Positions 34,321-50,108 of a DNA stretch of 64,000 bases are shown piece by piece. The translations under genes were made by a program, and so were the position numbers. Source of the DNA: Methanofollis aquaemaris. Its GTDB lineage: Archaea > Halobacteriota > Methanomicrobia > Methanomicrobiales > Methanofollaceae. Under the pieces are notes generated by a model. That model was not told where the DNA came from. It was given only the letters and a program-made list of their open reading frames with translations, and did no database searches. Position 1 is the first letter of the stretch; every line of letters starts with the position of its first letter. The DNA lies in NCBI RefSeq assembly GCF_017357525.1, contig NZ_CP036172.1:682001-746000 (forward strand), given 5' to 3'.

Positions 34321-35907
34321 TTACTGGTGTTTCTGGTTCTTGTATTCCATGCACGCCTTCACAAACCCGACATACGGCGGAGACGGCCTTGTCGGCCTGG
34401 ACCTGAACTCAGGGTGGAACTGGGTTGCAAAGAAGAACGGGTGGGAGGGGAGTTCGAGGATCTCCATCCTGTTCCCGTTCGTCCCTGAAAAGACCAGCCC
34501 CCCCTCTTTCAGTTCCTCGATATACTCGGGGTTCACCTCATAGCGGTGACGGTGCCGTTCGGTGATATCCTTCTTCTGGTAGAGGCTCCAGGCCCTGGTC
34601 CCCTGCGCCACGTCGACCGGATAGTTCCCAAGACGCATCGTCCCCCCGAGGTCGGTCACATCCTCCTGCTCGGGGAGAATAGCGATTACCTGGGTGCCCT
34701 CGCCGAACTCCTCTGAGATCGCGTCCTCATAGCCAAGGGCATCACGCGCGAACTCCACGACTGCCATCTGGAAACCCAGACAGATCCCGAGGAAGGGAAT
34801 CTGGTTCTCTCTGGCATATCGGATCGCGGAGATCTTTCCTGATACCCCCCGCTGGCCAAAGCCGCCGGGGATCAGGATCCCGTCCACTTCAGCGAGTTCT
34901 GCAGGTTCATAACTCTCCGCATCCAGCCACTTGATCAACACCTCGGCAGAGATTGAGCGGCCGGCGTGCTTGAGAGCCTCCTTGATCGAGAGATAGACAT
35001 CCTCGATCCCGTACTTGCTGACAATCCCTATGGTCACCCGATTGGTGTAGTCCTCGGTGACGGTGCGATACCACTCGGCGTCCACACCACGCTTTTCCAG
35101 ATCAAGGAGGTCGAGGACGACGTTGGCAGCCCCTTCCTTCTCAAGTTCCATCGGGACATGATAGATATCAGGGGCATCGGCCGCACTGACGACCGCGTTG
35201 AGCGGGACGTCACAGAAGTCGGAGATCTTGCGGCGCGAGTGCATGGGAAGAACCCGGTCGCTCCGGCAGACGATCATGTCTGGGCGCAGCCCGAGTTCAC
35301 GCAGCGCCTTGACCGAGTGCTGCGTCGGTTTGGTCTTGAGGTCGCCCATCGTGTCGGCAGGCACCAGGGTCACATGCACGAGGGCCGTGTCGTGCGCCGG
35401 GAGATCGCCGCGCATCTGGCGCACCGCTTCGAGGAAGGGCATCGACTCGATGTCGCCGACCGTACCGCCGACCTCGACGAGGCACACTTCTGCCCGGTGG
35501 CCGTTGTTCTCGAACTCCTCGGCCGTCCTGGTAATGCAGGCCTTGATCTCGTCGGTGATGTGCGGGATGATCTGAACGGTCCCGCCCAGGAAGTCGCCCC
35601 GCCGTTCCTTCTCGATGACACTCTTGTAGATCTTGCCGGTGGTGATGTTGTGGTTGCTCGTCAACTCGATGTCAAGAAAACGCTCGTAGTTGCCGAGATC
35701 AAGGTCCACCTCGCCACCGTCGCTGAGCACGAAGACCTCACCGTGCTGTGCAGGGTTCATGGTGCCCGCATCGATGTTCAGATAGGGATCGATCTTGATT
35801 GCCGTGACCTGATAGCCACGGTTCTTCAGGATCCTCCCGATCGATGCCGCCGTTATGCCTTTGCCAAGGCCACTCATTACGCCGCCAGTAACGAATATAT
35901 ACTTCAA
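34321..35907 (-). CDS. pyrG: CTP synthase
   Basis: A 528-residue enzyme that converts UTP to CTP with glutamine and ATP. The N-terminal synthase domain starts [24 protein letters not shown] and contains the [11 protein letters not shown] motif; the C-terminal class I glutaminase has GGFGQRG, the nucleophile in [17 protein letters not shown] and the His/Glu pair in ATQFHPEF. Length is full. It is the first gene of the pyrG-guaAB pair. Confidence 0.97.
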
Positions 35908-37861: not shown

Positions 37862-40800
37862 TTGGAAAGTTCAAAGTCAAACTCCCCGGATTCTGAAATC
37901 TCTCTCTTCTCCCTGGCCATGGATCAGGCAGGCGACGGCGTCCTGCTCATCGACCAGGAAGGCTCGATCATCTATGCCAACGAAGTCTTCGGCACACTCT
38001 TCGGGCTTGCAGCAGAGGGACTCGCAGGGCGCAGCGCCCTTGAGGTATTGGAGTCGGACCTCTCGCCTCTCTTCGAGGATCAGACTGGTTTTCTGAATCT
38101 GGTCGGGTCGATGTATCGCAAGGACCGGGAGATCAACGGGGGTGAATGGACACTCACAGGACCGGGGGCCCACGGGGTGGCATATTCCAGTCACCTGGTC
38201 AGGAGCGGGCCGCTCAAAGGGATGCGGGTCGACCTCTTCCGAGATATCTCCGAGCGGAAAATGGCTGAGAAACGTATTAAAATCGGCGAAAAAAAACATC
38301 ACGCACTGGTCTCGTCATCCGCAGCCCCCTGCTGCACGACCGACACGACCCTCAGAATAATCTCCGCCAACAAGGCCTTCTACGACTATTTCAGTACAGA
38401 AAAGAAAGAGAGTCGTTCTCTCCCTGACCTTCTCCCACCTGAGAGCGCCGCACGGGCCACAGGTGCGCTCCATAACCTCACACCACAGGAGCCACGGCTC
38501 TCGATAGAGAATGGAGATAGCGAGTGGATCGTTCACGGCATCTTCACAGACGAGGGCACGCTCGCCGAAGTTCTCTGGGTATGGCATGAGGACTGGTTCA
38601 AGGCCGGCGAACGGGCAAAAAAGATGCGGTGCCTGTACAAATTCGTGCACCTCCTCCACAACGAGGAACTCCCGGAGGAGGAGACACTCCTGCGAGGGGC
38701 GGAGATGATCGAGAGGTCGGTCCCCTGGATCCACGCAGTCGATATTTCAGTGCCCGGTCGTCTCTCCGTGTCGGCAGGAGAAACAGAGAAAGGGACACGA
38801 ACTTCACTTCCAATAGATACCGGCGACGGCCGGTGTGGTGAGGTGACGGTCTGGCACCATGAAGGAGAACAGAACCCCTCAGCTCCATCCTTCTTCCTCC
38901 TCACCATAGCCGACGAGATCACCCTCTATCTCAGAAACAGGACGGCTCAGGAATCTGCCGAACGCTCCCAGGTCACATACCAGACCCTCTTCGAGACGAC
39001 CGGCACCGCCTCCTTCCTCCTCGGCCCCATGATGGAGATTCTCATGGTCAACAGGGAATTCCTCCGGATGTTTGGATATACCGAGGCCGAGATCAGGGGC
39101 GGCATGTGCTGGCTCTCGTGCGCGGACGAAGACGACCAGGACATGGTCAGACACTTCCACCAGGCGCGGCTGAGTGATCCCGAGAACACCCCCACGACCT
39201 ATGAATGCCGCGCCTATGCGAAAGACGGTTCTCCGAGGGATCTCATCGTCAATGTCTCCCTCATACCAGGGACCGACCTCTCGATCATCTCTCTGGTGGA
39301 TATCACGACAAAGAAAGAGACCGATCATGAACTCAGGGTGAGCGAACACCGCTACCGGCTCATCACTGAGAACGCAACCGATGTGATCTTCACCCTCGAT
39401 CCTGACCTCAGTTTCACCTATGTGAGTCCCTCAGTCGGGAGGATCACCGGGATCCCGCCAGCAAACGTAATATCAAGGCCTATAGCAGACCTGCTCACCC
39501 CGGGCTCGTTTGCACGGTTCCGTGACGCCGCCATTGAAGTTCTGGCGCCGGGCGGGGGGCCCGGGCCGGAGACCGGTCGTTCAAAAGCGCTTGAGATCGA
39601 AGCACTCCGTGCTGACGGCAGTCCACTCTGGGCGGAGGTGCGGATCAACTCCCTATGCGACGCCGAGGAGGATGCAACAGTCGGCGTTATGGGGGTGATG
39701 CGGGACATCAGCGATCGCAAACTGGCTGAAGAGCGGGAGACTCAGTACGTCAGGGAACTCTCCTTCCTCTCCAATGCAGCGGTGGGCTTCGTCGACCTCC
39801 CGCCTGAAGACGAGATCTACCGGTTCATCGGCGAACATCTCTGCAGTTTCTTCGACGAGGCACTGGTCTTTGTTGCGCAGTACGACAGCCTCGAACAGAA
39901 AATCATCGTCAGGGCTGTCTCGGGAATCGATGAGGACAGAGATCCCCGCCTGTACTCCATGGCACGCGGCAGCATGGGGATGACCCTGCCCCTTCCCGAG
40001 GAACTCTACGAAGATCTGCTTGCCGGCGTACTCACACCTCTTGAGCGCGGTACCACTTCGCCACTCTTCATCGGGCAGGTAAAGAGCGCTGCCGAGACAT
40101 ACATGAACGGAACCGCCGGTTCGGTGCACGTGGTCGGGATCGCACGCAGTGACAATCTCTTCGGATGTGCGATCGTGGTCCGGCGAGACGACGACTATAT
40201 GGAGGCCATATCAACAATCGAGACCTTTGTACACCTCTCTTCGGTGGCTCTCCAGAGGAGGCTCCTTGAGATGGAAATCGAGTCGACCAGATCCCGCCTC
40301 CAGCATATCCTCTCCTCCAGCCCGGTCACGATCTTCTCGCTGGAGCCACCCAGAGAGCGGGGCGGAGGCATGGGCCTGATCACCTATGTGACTGAGAACA
40401 TCATCTCACTCCTCGGCTACGAACCCGAGGAGGTGATCTATGACTCGACATTCTGGACGACCACCCTCCACCCTTCGGACCGTCGCCGGATCCAGGACGA
40501 AGAATTCCCTGAACTCCTTGAAGAGGGACACAAAATTCTCGAATTCCGGATGCGTCACAAGGACGGGAAATATCGGTGGCTCCACTTCGAAATGCGCGTG
40601 ACCAGGGACGAAGAGGGAAACCATGTGGAGGTGATCGGTTCTGCAATCAACATCTCCGAGCGCAAGCGGATCGAGGAGGCCCTCAGGGTGATGGACAGCG
40701 CGATCACCTCATCGATCAACGCGATCACCATCACCGATCTGGAAGGAGACCTGGTCTTTGCAAACAACTCGACACTCAAACTCTGGGGATATGACGAGGT

Positions 40801-43048
40801 CAAGCAAGTGGCGGGCAAGCCCCTTGAGAGGTTCTGGCAGCCGAAGAAGAAGGTCGGGAAGATCCTCGAACGGATCGAGAAAGACGGCGGCTGGATGGGC
40901 GAACTTGTCGGGAAGAAGAAAGGGGGCAAGAAGTTCCATGCCAGTGTCTCGGCAAGCATGGTCACCGACGAGGAGGAAGACCCGCTCTGCATGATGTTCT
41001 CCTTTATGGACATCACCGAGCGGACTGAGATCGAGGATGAACTGGCAAGATACCGCTCGCACCTGGAAGAGATCGTCTTCGAGCGGACGAAGAAACTGAC
41101 TGAGACGAACGAGCGGCTCAGTGCCGAAATAATCGAACGAAAACGGGCTGAGGAGGAGATCAGGGCGCTCAGCACCTTCAGGGAAAGCATCATCGAGAAC
41201 GCCACGATGCTTCTCACTGTCACGGATACCGGGGGGCGGGTCACGGTCTGGAACCAGGCGGCCGAGGAGGTCACCGGGTATGCCAGAGACGAAGTCGTCG
41301 GTGGTGCAGAGATCTGGGATCGTCTTGTCCCGGATTCAAGGCTCAGGGCAAAGGTTCTGGAGGTGGTGCGGGGCGAGTGTACCAGATATGACACTTTCAG
41401 GAATCTGGAGGTGACGGTCCGCGCCAGGGACGGAGAGGAGAAGATCCTTCTCTGGAATGCACGTACCCTCAGGGACGGGGAGGGACATCCCCAGGGGATC
41501 GTCACCCTTGCCAAGGACATCACCACACGCAAGAGGATGGAAGAAGAGATTAGAACAAGCGAGGCACGGTACCGCGCTGTGGTCGAGGACCAGACCGAAT
41601 GGATCTGCCGCTTCAAGCCGGATATGGATCTGACCTTTGTCAACGAGGCATGTTGCAGATCATTTGGTCTCTCCAGAGACGAACTCCTCTCCACAACCCT
41701 CGACACCATTCTCCCCACATGGTTCGCCGACCTTCTCCCCTCGCTGGAGGAGCAACTGCGCGCCGGACGGCAGAGTGTCACCCTCGACGGGAGGGTTAAG
41801 TGCAGCAACCAGGAGGAGCGGTGGCACCAGTGGACGGTCAGGGCCATCTTCGCCCCGGACGGTTCGGTCACCGAGTATCAGGTGGTGGGCAGGGACATCA
41901 CCCTGGTGAAGAAGGCTGAGGAGGAGTTTGTCAGAACCGAGAAACTCCTCTCTCTCTCAGAACTTGCAGGCGGAATTGCCCACGACTTCAACAACATCCT
42001 CACCTCGGTGATGGGCAACATCAACCTGGCCAAGATGAAACTCGCACCCGACGACTTTGTCTACCAGCGACTGACCGAGGCGGAGACGGCGACGATGAAG
42101 GCAGGCGACATCACCCGCCAGCTCTTCAGTTTCTCTGACCTCTCCGAACCTGAGAAGGATACGGTCGATCTCTCCGACCTGGCGCGCGAGGCCGCGAGTT
42201 ATGCCCTGCGCGGCTCGAAGTGCAAGTGCCGGTTCGCTCTTGAACCGCTGCCGATGCCAGTGATGGGCGACGCCGCCCAGCTTCTTCAGGTTCTCCACGC
42301 CCTCATCATCAACGCAGACCAGGCAATGCCCGAGGGAGGGACGGTGACCATCGGCGCCGGCCCTGTGGAGGTCTCGGGGAGCGACCCCATCCCGATCCCG
42401 AAGGGGCGCTACGTCAGGGTCACGGTGGAGGACAGCGGCGTGGGGATCCTGCCAGAGCACATGGGCCGTATCTTCGACCCATACTTCACCACCAAGAAGC
42501 ACGGGTCAGGGATCGGACTGGCGATGGCTCTCCCGATCATCAAGAACCACGGCGGATGGATGGACGTCGCGTCCGAGCCGGGGATCGGGACGACGTTCTC
42601 ACTTTATCTTCCTGCAACGGCAACGGATGCGTGTGAGCAGATGAAACCCGCAGTCATTGCGCAGGGCGGGTCCGGCTCTCTCCTCCTGATGGACGACGAG
42701 GTCGGGATCCTGGAAACGACAAGTGACATTCTCAGGCACCTCGGCTACACAGTCGCAACGGCCCATGACGGAGAGGAGGCGGTGGCCAGGTTCGCCGGAG
42801 CCCAGGAGGCAAACACCCCCTTCGACGGAGTCATCCTCGACTTGACGGTACCCGGGAAGATGGGGGGCCTCGAAACCCTGAAACAACTGAAGCACCTTGA
42901 CCCCGAGGTGCGGGTCCTGGTCTCAAGCGGTTATCTCAATGACCCGATCATCAAAAATCCCGGCAATTACGGGTTCTATGGGAGTATCGGGAAACCCTAC
43001 ATGTTCGAAGAACTGAGCCGTTCCCTTCAAGAACTCCTCGGCCATTAA
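37862..43048 (+). CDS. Multi-PAS hybrid sensor histidine kinase with receiver domain
   Basis: A 1728-residue cytoplasmic signalling protein with no clear membrane segment. It contains at least seven PAS-like domains: residues about 18-125, 150-245, 375-490, 500-625, 820-940, 950-1070 and 1105-1375, in part recognised by Y(V/T)SPSVGRITGI, ITDLEGDLVFANN and ITDxE-like cores. A GAF-like segment lies at about 635-810. The kinase core has the phospho-His in ELAGGIAHDFNNILTSVMGN (about 1373), an HATPase domain with NADQAMPEGG, DSGVGILPEHMGRIFDPYFTTK and GSGIGLAMALPI, and the C-terminal receiver has the acceptor Asp in VILDLTVPGKMGG (about 1657). The H-D-F-N-N form is typical of methanogen kinases. 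TTG 37862 is the start. Ligands and target are unknown. Confidence 0.9.
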   Translation: MESSKSNSPDSEISLFSLAMDQAGDGVLLIDQEGSIIYANEVFGTLFGLAAEGLAGRSALEVLESDLSPLFEDQTGFLNLVGSMYRKDREINGGEWTLTGPGAHGVAYSSHLVRSGPLKGMRVDLFRDISERKMAEKRIKIGEKKHHALVSSSAAPCCTTDTTLRIISANKAFYDYFSTEKKESRSLPDLLPPESAARATGALHNLTPQEPRLSIENGDSEWIVHGIFTDEGTLAEVLWVWHEDWFKAGERAKKMRCLYKFVHLLHNEELPEEETLLRGAEMIERSVPWIHAVDISVPGRLSVSAGETEKGTRTSLPIDTGDGRCGEVTVWHHEGEQNPSAPSFFLLTIADEITLYLRNRTAQESAERSQVTYQTLFETTGTASFLLGPMMEILMVNREFLRMFGYTEAEIRGGMCWLSCADEDDQDMVRHFHQARLSDPENTPTTYECRAYAKDGSPRDLIVNVSLIPGTDLSIISLVDITTKKETDHELRVSEHRYRLITENATDVIFTLDPDLSFTYVSPSVGRITGIPPANVISRPIADLLTPGSFARFRDAAIEVLAPGGGPGPETGRSKALEIEALRADGSPLWAEVRINSLCDAEEDATVGVMGVMRDISDRKLAEERETQYVRELSFLSNAAVGFVDLPPEDEIYRFIGEHLCSFFDEALVFVAQYDSLEQKIIVRAVSGIDEDRDPRLYSMARGSMGMTLPLPEELYEDLLAGVLTPLERGTTSPLFIGQVKSAAETYMNGTAGSVHVVGIARSDNLFGCAIVVRRDDDYMEAISTIETFVHLSSVALQRRLLEMEIESTRSRLQHILSSSPVTIFSLEPPRERGGGMGLITYVTENIISLLGYEPEEVIYDSTFWTTTLHPSDRRRIQDEEFPELLEEGHKILEFRMRHKDGKYRWLHFEMRVTRDEEGNHVEVIGSAINISERKRIEEALRVMDSAITSSINAITITDLEGDLVFANNSTLKLWGYDEVKQVAGKPLERFWQPKKKVGKILERIEKDGGWMGELVGKKKGGKKFHASVSASMVTDEEEDPLCMMFSFMDITERTEIEDELARYRSHLEEIVFERTKKLTETNERLSAEIIERKRAEEEIRALSTFRESIIENATMLLTVTDTGGRVTVWNQAAEEVTGYARDEVVGGAEIWDRLVPDSRLRAKVLEVVRGECTRYDTFRNLEVTVRARDGEEKILLWNARTLRDGEGHPQGIVTLAKDITTRKRMEEEIRTSEARYRAVVEDQTEWICRFKPDMDLTFVNEACCRSFGLSRDELLSTTLDTILPTWFADLLPSLEEQLRAGRQSVTLDGRVKCSNQEERWHQWTVRAIFAPDGSVTEYQVVGRDITLVKKAEEEFVRTEKLLSLSELAGGIAHDFNNILTSVMGNINLAKMKLAPDDFVYQRLTEAETATMKAGDITRQLFSFSDLSEPEKDTVDLSDLAREAASYALRGSKCKCRFALEPLPMPVMGDAAQLLQVLHALIINADQAMPEGGTVTIGAGPVEVSGSDPIPIPKGRYVRVTVEDSGVGILPEHMGRIFDPYFTTKKHGSGIGLAMALPIIKNHGGWMDVASEPGIGTTFSLYLPATATDACEQMKPAVIAQGGSGSLLLMDDEVGILETTSDILRHLGYTVATAHDGEEAVARFAGAQEANTPFDGVILDLTVPGKMGGLETLKQLKHLDPEVRVLVSSGYLNDPIIKNPGNYGFYGSIGKPYMFEELSRSLQELLGH

Positions 43049-43400: not shown

Positions 43401-45200
43401 ATGACCGAGGGATCACCCGCCGACAGCAGGGAAGAGGCGTTCGCCCTCTATGAGGCCGGAAAGTACAGGGAGTCGATCGAGCGTTGCAACTCTCTCCCGG
43501 GCGGGAAGGATGATCCTTCGGTCGCTGTCCTCGTTGTGACCAACTATTTTGCCCTCAAGGAGTACGACGAAGCCGAAGTGCGGCTGCGCGACCTGATCAC
43601 GCACTCGCCCGACTCATCGTATTACCACAGTTTCCTCGGAAAGGTGCTTGAGGCCGCTGGCAAGGAAGGGGGGATCGCCGCATACGCCCAGGCAGTCCAG
43701 CTCGATCCCGGAAACGAGGAGGCGCTGCGGGCCTATGCCGTGCACTTCATCGGAATGGGCGACCACCGCACTGCCCTTCCCCTTCTCTCGGCCCTCGTGT
43801 CCATCTCAGGGAAACGAGATGACACTATCGCCCTGATGCGTAGCCTCATCGAGACAGGAGATGGTGAAGGGGCGCTGAAGGTTCATGCGTCGCTCTCCGG
43901 CGGCGAGGGGGCGAAGACCGAGTACATCGATGCCCTGATGACCGCTGGAAGGTACCAGGAGGCGGCAAAGGCCGCCCTTGCGGCATACCGATCATGCCGT
44001 GACCCCGGGTTCCTGCGCCAGCACCTCGCGGCCCTGGCGGTCTTCGACCGCCCCGCCGCCCTGCACCTCTTCCCGGCCTTCCTCCAGGAATGCCCGGACG
44101 ACGACCTGGCCCTCGACTATGTGCTTCTCCTCAAATCAGAAAAACGGTACCGAGAGGCGCTTGAGGCCTGCAAACGGCTCATTGAGCAAAGACCGGATCC
44201 GATTCACCAGCTTGTCGCCTGCGAACTCGTCGCAGGGACAGGTGAGAACGACCTGGCGCAGCAGGGATATGAAGAACTGATCAGAGAGGAGATCTGTCAG
44301 GGCAACGACCTCGAAACCCTCTCGATGATCGTCGGGGCGTACGAGGTTTTTCTCAAGAAGGCGTACGCCCTGACGACTGTGCCAGAGTGTTATCTCTCAG
44401 TTGTCTCAGGCGATCCGAACGTGATCAGTATGGCACGGACCGGATGGTTCTATGCCTCCTTCGGGGAGGCGAAAGAGGCACGCGAGTGGCTGTATCGAGC
44501 CTATCGACTCGACTACCTCAACGGCGGGGTCGAGTATGCCAGGTTCCTGGCACAGGAGGGTGACCTGCGCGAATGCGAGAAGGTGCTCCTCTATGTCCTC
44601 ACCCACCTCAAAAAAACCGGCGACCTGGTGCGGGTAACGAAGACGGTCCTCGAAGCGGAGAACAGGTGGCAGAGAATGCAGCGCCTGGTCGACGCACTCC
44701 TCGCCCGGTTCTCGGCAGAGATCAATACCCTCGGACCCGAGGGGGTGGAGGTCTTTGCCAGGGTCTATCTCTGCGCCGCCGAGGGGGCGCTTGAGGCCGG
44801 GGATTACGTGCGGTGCAAGGAGTGCTGTCTGTATGGATTTGATCTGACCAGAGAACATACCCGAGAGTTCTTCGAGATTATCACCCGCTGCAAGAAGGCG
44901 ACGGTGGCCGAACGACCGGTCCTCCCCTTCGGCGTCACCGGACCGACCGGGAATAGCAAGGACAGGGAGAGCAACGATCTCCCGGACCTCGGGCTTGATG
45001 AGCGTGAAGAAGCGCTCGTCGCATTTTTAAAACAGCACAGAGAGAGCAATGAAGAAGAACTCCGCAAAGTGCTCGGGACACGGCGGGTGAGCGGTGCGGT
45101 CAACCGGCTCATCAAGAAAGCGGCAGACGCCGGGGTCTCCCTCATCGAGAAACAGGGGATGGGCGAGCACGGCGAGATCTATGTCTACTGCGGGAAGTGA
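43401..45200 (+). CDS. TPR-repeat protein with C-terminal winged helix
   Basis: A 599-residue soluble protein. Residues about 8-500 are helical repeats of tetratricopeptide type (for example EEAFALYEAGKYRESIERC, YDEAEVRLRDLITHSPDSSYYHSFLG, KRYREALEACKRLIEQRPD). The last 75 residues look like a winged helix (DEREEALVAFLKQHRESNEEELRKVLGTRRVSGAVNRLIKKA), followed by a hairpin GEHGEIYVYCGK. ATG 43401 is used because the upstream frame is not conserved-looking. The next gene, a BrxD/DUF2791-like ATPase, starts 5 bp after its stop. A DNA-recruiting scaffold for that ATPase is a reasonable inference; no published role is known to me. Confidence 0.8.
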   Translation: MTEGSPADSREEAFALYEAGKYRESIERCNSLPGGKDDPSVAVLVVTNYFALKEYDEAEVRLRDLITHSPDSSYYHSFLGKVLEAAGKEGGIAAYAQAVQLDPGNEEALRAYAVHFIGMGDHRTALPLLSALVSISGKRDDTIALMRSLIETGDGEGALKVHASLSGGEGAKTEYIDALMTAGRYQEAAKAALAAYRSCRDPGFLRQHLAALAVFDRPAALHLFPAFLQECPDDDLALDYVLLLKSEKRYREALEACKRLIEQRPDPIHQLVACELVAGTGENDLAQQGYEELIREEICQGNDLETLSMIVGAYEVFLKKAYALTTVPECYLSVVSGDPNVISMARTGWFYASFGEAKEAREWLYRAYRLDYLNGGVEYARFLAQEGDLRECEKVLLYVLTHLKKTGDLVRVTKTVLEAENRWQRMQRLVDALLARFSAEINTLGPEGVEVFARVYLCAAEGALEAGDYVRCKECCLYGFDLTREHTREFFEIITRCKKATVAERPVLPFGVTGPTGNSKDRESNDLPDLGLDEREEALVAFLKQHRESNEEELRKVLGTRRVSGAVNRLIKKAADAGVSLIEKQGMGEHGEIYVYCGK

Positions 45201-45205
45201 AGGGG

Positions 45206-46480
45206 ATGAACGAGAAAAAGACTGAGAGCATCGGGATCATCAACGCCCTCAGGCGCGGCACGGTGCCGGCCGCAGGGCTCGAACGACTTGCAGTCGGACT
45301 TGAGGTTGAAGGACGCGTGATCGGTGGGCAGCTCGATTACATCGCCTCGGGAGGGGCGGATATCAAGTTTGTGCGGGGGGACTATGGGAGCGGGAAGACC
45401 TTCCTGGTGGCGCGGGCGCTTGAGATCGCACGGGAGAAAGGGTTTGCGACCGCCCATGTGATGATCTCGGCCGACACTCCGCTCCACAAGTTGAGCGCCC
45501 TCTATTACCGGATCCTCTCCTCGATGCGCACGGCCGAGCACGAGAACGCCCTCAAAGAAATCATCGACAACTGGACCTTCTCGATCGAGGAGCGGATCAT
45601 CGATGTGGAGAAGACTGAGGAGGACGAAGCTCTGGAAGCCGGGACAGTGGCGCGGATCGAGGAGGCGCTCACCGACATCTCGACGGTGAACCCGGCGCTG
45701 GCCGCGGCGTTGCGGGTCTACTACACCGCCAACAACGCAGGAGATTTCCATCTCGCCCAGGCGGCGCTCGGCTGGCTCTCCGGCGAGCCTCATATCGGTC
45801 GCGACTTTCGCCGGGCGGCGGGGGTAAAAGGCGAGGTGGACGAGGTCTCGGCACTGGTCTTTCTCCAGGGGATCGTCCGGGTGATCAGAGGGGCCGGGTA
45901 CCGCGGTCTTGCCGTGGCCGTCGATGAGGTCGAGACGGTTCAGGCCCTTTCTTCCAACCTGCGGCAGCGGGGTTACAACAACCTCCGCCAGATCGTCGAC
46001 GCCGCAGACCGCGGCCAGATGCCAGGTTGCTACTTCCTCTTCACCGGTACGCCGGCCTTCTTCGAGGGTTCGAAGGGGATCAGGTCGCTCCCGCCGTTGT
46101 ACGACCGGCTGAAGGTTGTTGGGGATGACGGGTATACCAATCCTCTCCAGGCCCAGATCGAACTCTCCCCCTTTGACAGGCAGAAACTTGAGGCGGCCGC
46201 CCAGAAGGTCTGCGAGATCTACTCAGACGCGTCCGGCCCGGTGGACCGGGAGCGGGTCTCCCACCGTTTTGTCAGGGGAATGATCGATGGAGTTACCTCA
46301 CGGTTCGGCGGGCGGGTGGACGTCATCCCGCGGGTCTTCCTGCGCGAGTTCGTGGATGTCCTGGACAAGTGCGAGCTCTACCCCGACTACGACCCAACAA
46401 AGGCCTATGCTTTTGATGCCGGGAAAGTGAAGCAGGAACTGAACGAGGAGGAAGAGGCCTTCTTTGAGGTCGAGTTCTGA
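45206..46480 (+). CDS. BrxD/DUF2791-like P-loop ATPase
   Basis: A 424-residue STAND/AAA-like ATPase resembling the DUF2791 family that includes BREX protein BrxD. Walker A is RGDYGSGKTFL (about residues 55-65), Walker B VAVDEVET (about 235-242), a sensor-like LFTGTPAFFEG lies near 281-291, and the C-terminal helical part continues to VFLREFVDVLDKCELYPDYDPTKAY. ATG 45206 follows AAGGGG; a GTG 9 bp upstream is possible. It sits between the TPR/winged-helix gene (5-bp gap) and the OB-HD gene (12-bp gap). No BREX methylase, PglZ or BrxL gene is near, so this is a solitary ATPase module, perhaps in DNA protection or repair. The family assignment is from memory. Confidence 0.8.
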   Translation: MNEKKTESIGIINALRRGTVPAAGLERLAVGLEVEGRVIGGQLDYIASGGADIKFVRGDYGSGKTFLVARALEIAREKGFATAHVMISADTPLHKLSALYYRILSSMRTAEHENALKEIIDNWTFSIEERIIDVEKTEEDEALEAGTVARIEEALTDISTVNPALAAALRVYYTANNAGDFHLAQAALGWLSGEPHIGRDFRRAAGVKGEVDEVSALVFLQGIVRVIRGAGYRGLAVAVDEVETVQALSSNLRQRGYNNLRQIVDAADRGQMPGCYFLFTGTPAFFEGSKGIRSLPPLYDRLKVVGDDGYTNPLQAQIELSPFDRQKLEAAAQKVCEIYSDASGPVDRERVSHRFVRGMIDGVTSRFGGRVDVIPRVFLREFVDVLDKCELYPDYDPTKAYAFDAGKVKQELNEEEEAFFEVEF

Positions 46481-46492
46481 GGAGTGAATGAG

Positions 46493-47461
46493 ATGGGTGA
46501 GAGATCCGGGAAACAGAAATATGCAGCAGAGGCCTCTGATGGCGAGGAGGTGGACGACCTCTTCCTCCTCAAGACCTTCGAGGTGAAGCAGAAGAAGGAC
46601 GGGAGCCCGTACATCTGGGCCGAGATCGCCGATGTCACCGGTACGCTCTCCTGCTTTATCTGGGGTGTGCAGGGGTGTGGGGACACGGTCATGGAGACCG
46701 CCTCCTCCCTGCGACCTGGCGAGGTGTACCGGGTGAGGGGATTTGCAAAGACCTACAATGGCTCGGTCCAGATCTCGGTGAACGATGGAATCTCCAACCT
46801 TGCCGAACCGGTCCCCCCCACCGATGTCGATCCAGATGACTATGTCTCGTCGCCGGTCAAAGACCTGGACCTGAAGGGCGGGGTGCTCAGGATGGCCGGC
46901 GAGATCTCAGATCAGGTGCTCGGCCAGATGGTGCTGGAGGTGATCTCGTCGGTCGATGGGTTCTTCATCAAACCTGCAGCAAAGGGAAGGCACCACGAAT
47001 ACCGGGGGGGACTTGCAGAGCACACGCTTGAGACGGCCAGGATCGCCCTGGCGGCCTGCGATGCCACACGGACCGATGCCGACCGCGACCTGGTCATCGC
47101 CGGTGCCCTCCTTCACGACATCGGGAAGGCCTTCTGTTTCGAGGAGCAGGGGCTTGGCTTCGCGGCGCGGCCCGAGTACGACCTCGTCGGCCACGTCACC
47201 ATGGGGGTCTCCTATATCGCTCCATTCGCAAAGAAGCGTCTGCCGGCAGAGAAGGCCGCCCACCTCCTCCATATCCTCCAGTCCCACCACGGGCCGCACG
47301 GCGAGGTGTCCTGCCAGACGCCCGAAGCCTGGACAGTCCACCTCGCCGACCTGACCAGCGCCACCCTCAGGGAGGCCGCAGACGACCAGGCCGATCTCGT
47401 CCCGGGAAGCGGGAAGAGAAATGGCTGGCGGTCAGGGGGACCGGTCTGGCGTTTCGGCTGA
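46493..47461 (+). CDS. OB-fold/HD-domain protein, YhaM 3'-5' exoribonuclease-like
   Basis: A 322-residue protein with an N-terminal OB fold (about residues 20-95: LLKTFEVKQKKDGSPYIWAEIADVTG, then VYRVRGFAKTYNGSVQISV) and a C-terminal HD domain with RGGLAEHTLETARIA (the first His), LLHDIGKA (HD pair, about 205-212), GHVTMG and HHGPHGE. The combination is that of YhaM-type exonucleases, which trim RNA and DNA 3' ends. ATG 46493 with GGAG 8 nt upstream is chosen; GTG 46484 is also in frame. It is the last gene of the TPR-ATPase-HD operon, so its nuclease activity may be governed by the ATPase. Confidence 0.85.
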   Translation: MGERSGKQKYAAEASDGEEVDDLFLLKTFEVKQKKDGSPYIWAEIADVTGTLSCFIWGVQGCGDTVMETASSLRPGEVYRVRGFAKTYNGSVQISVNDGISNLAEPVPPTDVDPDDYVSSPVKDLDLKGGVLRMAGEISDQVLGQMVLEVISSVDGFFIKPAAKGRHHEYRGGLAEHTLETARIALAACDATRTDADRDLVIAGALLHDIGKAFCFEEQGLGFAARPEYDLVGHVTMGVSYIAPFAKKRLPAEKAAHLLHILQSHHGPHGEVSCQTPEAWTVHLADLTSATLREAADDQADLVPGSGKRNGWRSGGPVWRFG

Positions 47462-47489: not shown

Positions 47490-47660
47490 GGGCTCGCTGA
47501 TGCTCGGCTCCCGAGAATAATTCTTTTGGCTTTGTAGAAATCGTCTTTATAGTTCTCTTCGATGGGGGGCTTGCCGCCCCCCGAACCCCCCGCCGAAGAT
47601 AGGCAGTGGGAGCCCCCGGCATAAGCATGAGGGAAGGCGATGGATTCAGTTCACAGGGGG
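47490..47660 (+). repeat. Dispersed repeat copy, weak, forward orientation
   Basis: In the 47462-47890 gap, which has no gene. Blocks CTTTTGGCTTTGTAGAAATCG (47522-) and GGGGGGCTTGCCGCCCCCCGAACCCCC (47563-; read as two short parts) correspond to the TTTTGGCTCTGTAG and GGGGGCGCTGCCCCxGGACCCCC parts of the family. The rest up to 47890 shows a further G/C-rich stretch near 47770-47800 but nothing else. Confidence 0.45.
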
Positions 47661-48737: not shown

Positions 48738-49994
48738 TCACTCCCGCCGCTGCCGGCGGAGCCGCACCGAGTTGGCATGAGCATGGAGACCCTCGGCGGT
48801 GGCGAGCGACTCGACGATATCGCCGAGCGCCTCGGCACCCTCCCTGCTGAGCATCTGGACCGACGAGGTCTTGCAGAAGTGGTGGATGTCCAGGCCAGAG
48901 TACGTCCTCGCATATCCTGCGGTCGGGAGGACGTGGTTGGTCCCTGAGGCATAGTCCCCGAAGGCGACTGCCGTGTACGGTCCGACGAAGATGGAGCCCG
49001 CATGGTGGACGGCGTTGAGGGCGGCCATCGGATCTGTGACCTGGATGGAGAGATGTTCGGGGGCGACCTCGTCCATCGCTGCGACAGCCTCGTCGAAGTC
49101 GGCGGCGACAACATAGCCGGAGTTCTCAAGGGCGGCCTCGATGATCTCACGGCGTTCGGCTGTCTCGAGTTGCCGCCTGATCTCGGCGCCGACGCGCGCA
49201 GGGAGCGCAGGATCGGTGGTGACCAGGACGCACCCGGCATGGGGGTCGTGCTCGGCCTGGGCAAGGACGTCGGCGGCGACGAAGACCGGATCCGCGCTCT
49301 CGTCGGCGAGCACTCCGATCTCAGAGGGGCCGGCCGGAAAGTCGATCTCTGCGTGGTCTCTCAGCATCATCTTGGCCGCGGTCACAAAGACATTCCCTGG
49401 CCCGACGATCTTCTGGACCGGGTCGATGGTCTCGGTCCCCAGGGCCATCGCAGCGATGGCCTGCGCCCCGCCGATGCGGTAGCACTCGTCCACCCCGGCA
49501 AGATCGAGGGCGACAAGGGTGAGAGGGTGGATGGGAGGCGGCGAGCAGACGCAGACCTCTGCAACCCCGGCCACCTGCGCGGGGACCGTGGTCATCAGCG
49601 CCGTAGAGGGGTACGCCGCACGGCCGCCCGGGACATAGGCCCCGATCCGGTCGAGGGGCGTCGTCTTTACGCCCAGCACCACGCCGGGTTCTACCTCCTC
49701 AAGCCAGAGAGAACGGTTGCGCTGCAGTTCGTGGAACCGCCTGATATTGGCCTCAGCATCGGCGAGGGCGTCGATCAGGGCGTCGTCCACCTCGTCGTAC
49801 GCCGCCTCGAACTCCTCAGGAGCGACCGCGAGATCTTCAAGGTCGATATGGTCAAACTTCCTGGTGAGGGCATAGAGTGCCTCGTCCCCATCCTGTTCCA
49901 CCGCCCCTACAATCCCGGCAACAGCCTCCCGCACCCCGGCGAGGTCGGCCCGCCGCTGTTCCTTCCATGCAGCAACATCCAGCGCCTTCCACAT
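48738..49994 (-). CDS. hisD: Histidinol dehydrogenase
   Basis: A 418-residue zinc enzyme for the last two steps of histidine synthesis (histidinol to histidine, NAD+). Recognisable motifs are [23 protein letters not shown] (about 121-143), [16 protein letters not shown] (near 175-190), DKIVGPGN-like [29 protein letters not shown] and the catalytic Glu-His region [11 protein letters not shown] (about 325-335). ATG 49994 is used; an in-frame upstream ATG lies in AT-rich promoter-like DNA. It is alone on its strand, divergent from wtpA. Confidence 0.95.
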
Positions 49995-50108
49995 AGTGCG
50001 AAAAGATTCGACACATGAAGGCATTAAGACTTGCTGTAATTCTGGAGAATAGTTGATCAAAAAATATGAATTCAGAAGAATTATTTGAGAGTGATACCAA
50101 TTTAGAAT

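Follow-up and report, generated by a model that had tools for sequence, protein, structure and literature searches.

We propose that a BrxD-family ATPase and a BrxHI-type SF2 helicase of Methanofollis form a BREX-type helicase loader and motor that is split across the genome, is equipped with a dedicated TPR/winged-helix adaptor, is fixed in the chromosomal core and most likely serves maintenance of the host's own DNA, a reading to which we assign a probability of roughly 0.6. The TPR/winged-helix protein and BrxD are encoded at one locus in the 64,000-nucleotide stretch analyzed here (the window), which belongs to a single-contig chromosome of 2.75 Mb, and the helicase, which would complete this three-part machine, is encoded 1.1 Mb away.

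The locus contains three open reading frames, all on the + strand, encoding the TPR/winged-helix protein (43401-45200; 599 aa), the BrxD-family ATPase of the ORC/Cdc6-type AAA+ class (45206-46480; 424 aa from ATG), and a protein with an OB fold and an HD domain (OB-HD; 46493-47461; 322 aa from ATG). GTG codons provide alternative starts for brxD at 45197 (427 aa, overlapping the stop of the TPR gene) and for the OB-HD gene at 46484 (325 aa), and alignments of relatives favored the ATG starts, with which the TPR gene and brxD are separated by 5 bp, and brxD and the OB-HD gene by 12 bp. An earlier, sequence-only reading of this DNA had given the same coordinates and spacings and had described an operon layout, and the three genes are indeed co-directional and closely set in Methanofollis. 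Profile and structure matches bore out the gene and domain identities that it had proposed. It had known of no function assigned to this combination of genes, and we found none either.

The first protein contains TPR repeats (Pfam TPR_19, E = 6.8e-16), and its AlphaFold2 model (pLDDT 87.8) predicts a long superhelix spanning approximately residues 1-500, followed by a flexible linker and, at the C terminus, a winged helix (residues 534-596; 45000-45188, + strand). The winged helix, modeled with a pLDDT of ~90 and the topology H-E-H-H-E-E, is the most conserved portion of the protein, and when the domain was folded alone the best PDB matches were MarR/ArsR-type regulators (HpaR, TM 0.68, probability 1.0). 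Fold comparison of the whole model returned generic TPR scaffolds only, with low TM, and OGT, LGN, and designed repeats ranked above Ski3; a likeness to Ski3, just one among many such scaffolds, was dropped as evidence.

The second protein matched Pfam PF10923 (BrxC_BrxD) with 436.8 bits (E 1e-130; cut-off 22.2 bits) and NCBIfam BREX_BrxD (NF033438) with 437.7 bits (curated cut-off 350), in keeping with the kinship to BREX ATPases noted earlier, and the PADLOC scores were 441.6 bits for BrxD versus 157.6 bits for SngB. In an alignment of 27 BrxD sequences from three families, the mean column identity was 71%, and the Walker A motif (G..G.GKTF) and the DE residues of Walker B were invariant. 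Scores above the curated cut-offs, together with the intact Walker motifs, identify the protein by sequence as a member of the BrxD ATPase family. A sequence search with the BrxD profile against solved structures returned no meaningful relative.

The prevalence of the locus was examined in 120 Methanomicrobiales genomes and in a phylum-wide sample of 295 genomes. The TPR gene and an orthologous brxD were adjacent and single-copy in 60/60 genomes of three families, namely Methanofollis (f1, 12 genomes), Methanoregula/Methanolinea/Methanospirillum (f5, 24), and Methanocalculus/Methanocorpusculum (f6, 24), and the pair was found in 0/60 genomes of the remaining Methanomicrobiales families. Outside the three pair-bearing families, the TPR protein had no match at E ≤ 1e-30 among the 295 genomes of the phylum. 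The TPR gene and brxD are an obligate adjacent pair, and the TPR protein is a putative dedicated partner of BrxD. Single-gene trees of hisD and pyrG did not resolve the branching order of the families, so the distribution of the module may reflect either gain or loss.

In 42 of the 44 genomes of f1, f5, and Methanocalculus, pyrG is no more than ~12 kb from the pair, a synteny that is mostly lost in Methanocorpusculum. The neighbors in Methanofollis include genes for GMP synthase, CTP synthase (pyrG; 34321-35907, - strand), a thioesterase, a DJ-1/PfpI protein, and a PAS kinase, followed by the trio, histidinol dehydrogenase (hisD; 48738-50060, - strand), and an ABC transporter, with pyrG and hisD serving as syntenic anchors. 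The pair comes after a glycosyltransferase or DJ-1 gene in f5 and f6, and in f2 and some f4 genomes the DJ-1, glycosyltransferase, and OB-HD genes are contiguous and the pair is missing. Between Methanofollis species, dN/dS was 0.06-0.10 for BrxD versus 0.08-0.13 for hisD, 0.13-0.19 for the TPR protein, 0.17-0.25 for the helicase, and 0.13-0.26 for OB-HD; BrxD is under purifying selection like that on hisD. The sequence-only reading had likened the locus to an accessory or mobile island. We rejected a mobile or defense island because the locus is syntenic with pyrG and hisD, is under hisD-like constraint, has no defense genes among the scanned neighbors, and is not patchy; the pair instead shows a housekeeping distribution, which the same reading had named as speaking against its own proposal.

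Since a helicase was encoded next door in every other BrxD-type locus inspected (Shango, a three-gene set from f12, loci with two ATPases, and BREX-2/6 plasmid loci), such a helicase was sought in the pair-bearing genomes, and one SF2 helicase of ~700 aa was found at an unlinked position. In the genome analyzed here it is encoded at 1844299-1846404 (L191:1441-3549), beside genes for a purF-like glutamine amidotransferase/phosphoribosyltransferase, a thioredoxin, and a pterin dehydratase. A point against the proposed machine is that no direct linkage of the helicase gene to the pair occurs: it was unlinked in all complete genomes inspected, and the distance is usually hundreds of kb, with ~18 kb in one Methanocorpusculum contig. 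The PADLOC BrxHI profile matched it with 535.9 bits over 3-683 of 698, and this full-length match, together with its placement among dyad helicases and not Lhr, identifies it by homology as a member of the BrxHI family. With the protein itself as query, each of the 60 pair-bearing genomes and no other gave a match of E < 1e-130, and matches in the other 60 were no better than ~1e-80 and were Lhr- or Shango-type helicases, a 60/60 versus 0/60 pattern that follows family lines and would be matched by any gene confined to these families. The co-occurrence of pair and helicase may thus rest on few evolutionary events, one or two; we place it above lineage coincidence because homologs of the two unlinked genes adjoin in unrelated systems. 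The helicase is likely a third component of the module, out of sight of a reading confined to the locus.

Outside the order, the closest relatives of both BrxD and the helicase in the 295-genome sample of the phylum were encoded by adjacent genes in the same three f12 genomes. The best plasmid matches (~42% identity for BrxD and ~37% for the helicase) were neighboring genes in BREX-2 loci with pglZ/pglX, and the same loci stood high in both match lists. Maximum-likelihood trees were built for each protein; in both, the chromosomal sequences were monophyletic and lay near BREX-2/6 and apart from Shango. The dyad helicases separated from the ordinary Lhr encoded by the same genomes with 100/100 support. 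Around the deepest forks of the BrxD tree support was modest, and the BrxD and helicase trees largely agree. These comparisons indicate that the two proteins and those of type-2 and type-6 BREX come from one common BrxD-BrxHI stock.

The module differs from each of these relatives in its partners and its setting. The type-2 BREX loci on plasmids of Polaromonas, Thiodictyon, and Streptomyces draw on the same two-protein stock, but they have BrxHI beside brxD, whereas the module described here has a distant helicase, a TPR/winged-helix partner instead, and a core chromosomal place. Neither PglZ (PF08665) nor a second PF10923 protein (BrxC/PglY) was found in this genome, the only PF10923 protein being BrxD of the locus itself, and few of the 60 genomes with the pair have PglZ. 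The earlier statement that the locus has no BREX partner accordingly holds for its surroundings and for PglZ and a second PF10923 protein, but not for the BrxHI-type helicase encoded elsewhere. Shango (SngA TerB, SngB ATPase, and SngC helicase) likewise combines an ATPase and an SF2 helicase with a third specific subunit, and shares some genomes with the core pair; however, it is one compact operon of patchy distribution, forms its own clade in both trees, and has TerB in place of the TPR/winged-helix protein, and the neighbors at the locus are the TPR protein and OB-HD, with no TerB SngA beside SngB/SngC. The f12 three-gene set, which is undescribed, contains the nearest BrxD and helicase relatives in the phylum, but its helicase gene is adjacent, its third protein is a different one, and it is confined to one genus of the sample.

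Several loci were recorded in the course of this comparison. Shango (SngABC) loci occur in several Methanomicrobiales, including pair-bearing Methanofollis (L065:6720-12611, L066, L067, L068, and L071). The f12 set (L185:167-4322, L186:113-4281, and L187:349-4517) encodes a 258-aa orphan without a Pfam match, a BrxD-like ATPase, and a BrxHI-like helicase. Four further loci (L069:8205-13530, L070, L188:8866-12882, and L189:6470-10634) encode a pair of PF10923 ATPases and, after them, a short SF2 helicase, and matched no named system.

To our knowledge, all characterized relatives of BrxD and BrxHI are antiviral, which we counted against a role in maintenance. A 2026 analysis placed BrxD in the ORC/Cdc6 AAA+ group and described a tightly linked dyad of BrxD and BrxHI, for which helicase loading was proposed (PMC12839542). 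In the mechanism that we envisage, the TPR protein, through its winged helix, would recognize either a structure in the DNA or a partner protein and recruit a BrxD oligomer, and BrxD, spending ATP, would load or switch on the helicase at that site, comparable to the proposal for BREX (PMC12839542). The TPR/winged-helix protein would thus stand in for the rest of BREX as a targeting subunit, with BrxD as the loader and BrxHI as the motor, and the module would act on the host's own DNA, at stalled forks, damage, or R-loops. A role on host DNA is the most likely because the module has neither a nuclease nor a methyltransferase among its obligate parts and because it is fixed and passed on vertically.

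A rather unlikely alternative, although constitutive defense is a close second to maintenance, is that the module is a fixed antiviral system, in which the TPR/winged-helix protein detects invading DNA, whose replication BrxD and the helicase then block, providing constitutive core immunity. The strong PADLOC matches to BrxD and BrxHI are consistent with this, as is the work of BrxD, SngB, BrxHI, and SngC relatives in anti-phage systems (PMC12839542, PMC10250203), and constitutive immunity would also fit fixation in three families. However, the ten scanned neighbors in the window contained no defense genes, giving only ABC-type ATPase matches from a transporter, and the pair is universal, single-copy, syntenic, and slow-evolving, whereas true Shango loci are patchily distributed within this order. 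Maintenance is favored as the most likely role by fixation, synteny, constraint, and the absence of any obligate effector. The evolutionary statement that a BREX-type dyad became, or always was, a machine for core genome maintenance in Methanomicrobiales, targeted by a TPR/winged-helix subunit and with its helicase uncoupled in the genome, is more tentative, and we rate it somewhat below even odds.

The third gene of the trio bears on a further alternative. Pfam searches identified an OB fold and an HD domain in its product, which is homologous across almost its full length to the solved YhaM/Cbf1 structures (9h3f and 9o7t; profile E 3.6e-40) and shares their OB and HD architecture; the HD metal residues H180, H211, D212, and D289 were invariant in 23 OB-HD sequences. 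It differs from YhaM in scoring 81.1 bits against the NCBIfam YhaM equivalog (NF010007), below the cut-off of 460, and is a YhaM-like, putative 3'-5' exonuclease. The gene was present in f1, f2, f4, and f6 and missing from all 24 f5 genomes. A surveillance operon, in which a TPR scaffold, the ATPase, and the exonuclease form a degradation complex, perhaps Ski-like with a Ski2-like helicase, would accord with the tight operon in Methanofollis, with the homology of OB-HD to the 3'-5' exoribonuclease YhaM, and with the appearance of Ski3 among the many TPR scaffolds matched by the TPR model. Yet the TPR matches are generic, with better-ranked scaffolds ahead of Ski3; the exonuclease gene is missing in 24/24 f5 genomes that have the pair and the helicase and occurs in f2 and f4 genomes that have neither; and other genes often lie between the pair and the OB-HD gene in f6. 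We consider such an operon improbable. The same distribution rules out OB-HD as an obligate third component and does not uphold the three-gene unit of the sequence-only reading: OB-HD is absent where the pair is universal (f5) and present where the pair is missing (f2 and f4). We think that OB-HD is an older neighbor in a common gene string, dispensable to the module, and perhaps co-transcribed with the pair in Methanofollis, where the genes are co-directional. In Methanocalculus/Methanocorpusculum, the inserts between BrxD and OB-HD (L033, L039, and L046) include AAA_14/DUF4143 ATPases and a TPR protein.

Still less probable is a split signal-transduction switch, in which the TPR/winged-helix protein is a transcription regulator under the control of BrxD and the helicase shares their distribution through a lineage effect only: the combination of TPR, winged helix, and NTPase partly resembles STAND-type regulators, and the winged helix resembles those of MarR/ArsR regulators, but BrxD is an ORC/Cdc6-type AAA+ protein and not a STAND protein (PMC12839542), and the nearest outside helicase homologs adjoin the nearest outside BrxD homologs.

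If the BREX-type loader and helicase do maintain host DNA, they would be a non-defense member of the BREX/Shango helicase-loader class and would clearly illustrate that antiviral systems and core genome maintenance exchange parts in archaea. Few parts of type-2 BREX are as poorly understood as BrxD and BrxHI, and a stripped-down system, which each cell has in a single, chromosomally fixed form and which works without the other BREX parts, would allow the ATPase-helicase step to be studied alone. Scans restricted to gene neighborhoods miss partners that are encoded elsewhere.

The window showed further features around the locus. In most of the Methanofollis loci inspected, the gene directly before the TPR gene encodes a hybrid histidine kinase (37862-43048 in the window; 1728 aa) that carries numerous PAS domains together with a receiver domain. 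Searches of the window for Rfam families and tRNAs found none, and a repeat search between the two flanks of the locus alone gave only short, chance-like pairs. The sequence-only reading had placed the trio between dispersed repeats, and the intergenic element on the 3' side (47545-47660; no strand assigned) is indeed repeated, with 43 other, mostly partial, chromosomal copies, but it marks no island: dispersed repeats were rejected as island borders because the copies lie all round the chromosome. They occur on both strands, and the element apparently consists of two halves (~1-65 and 66-116).
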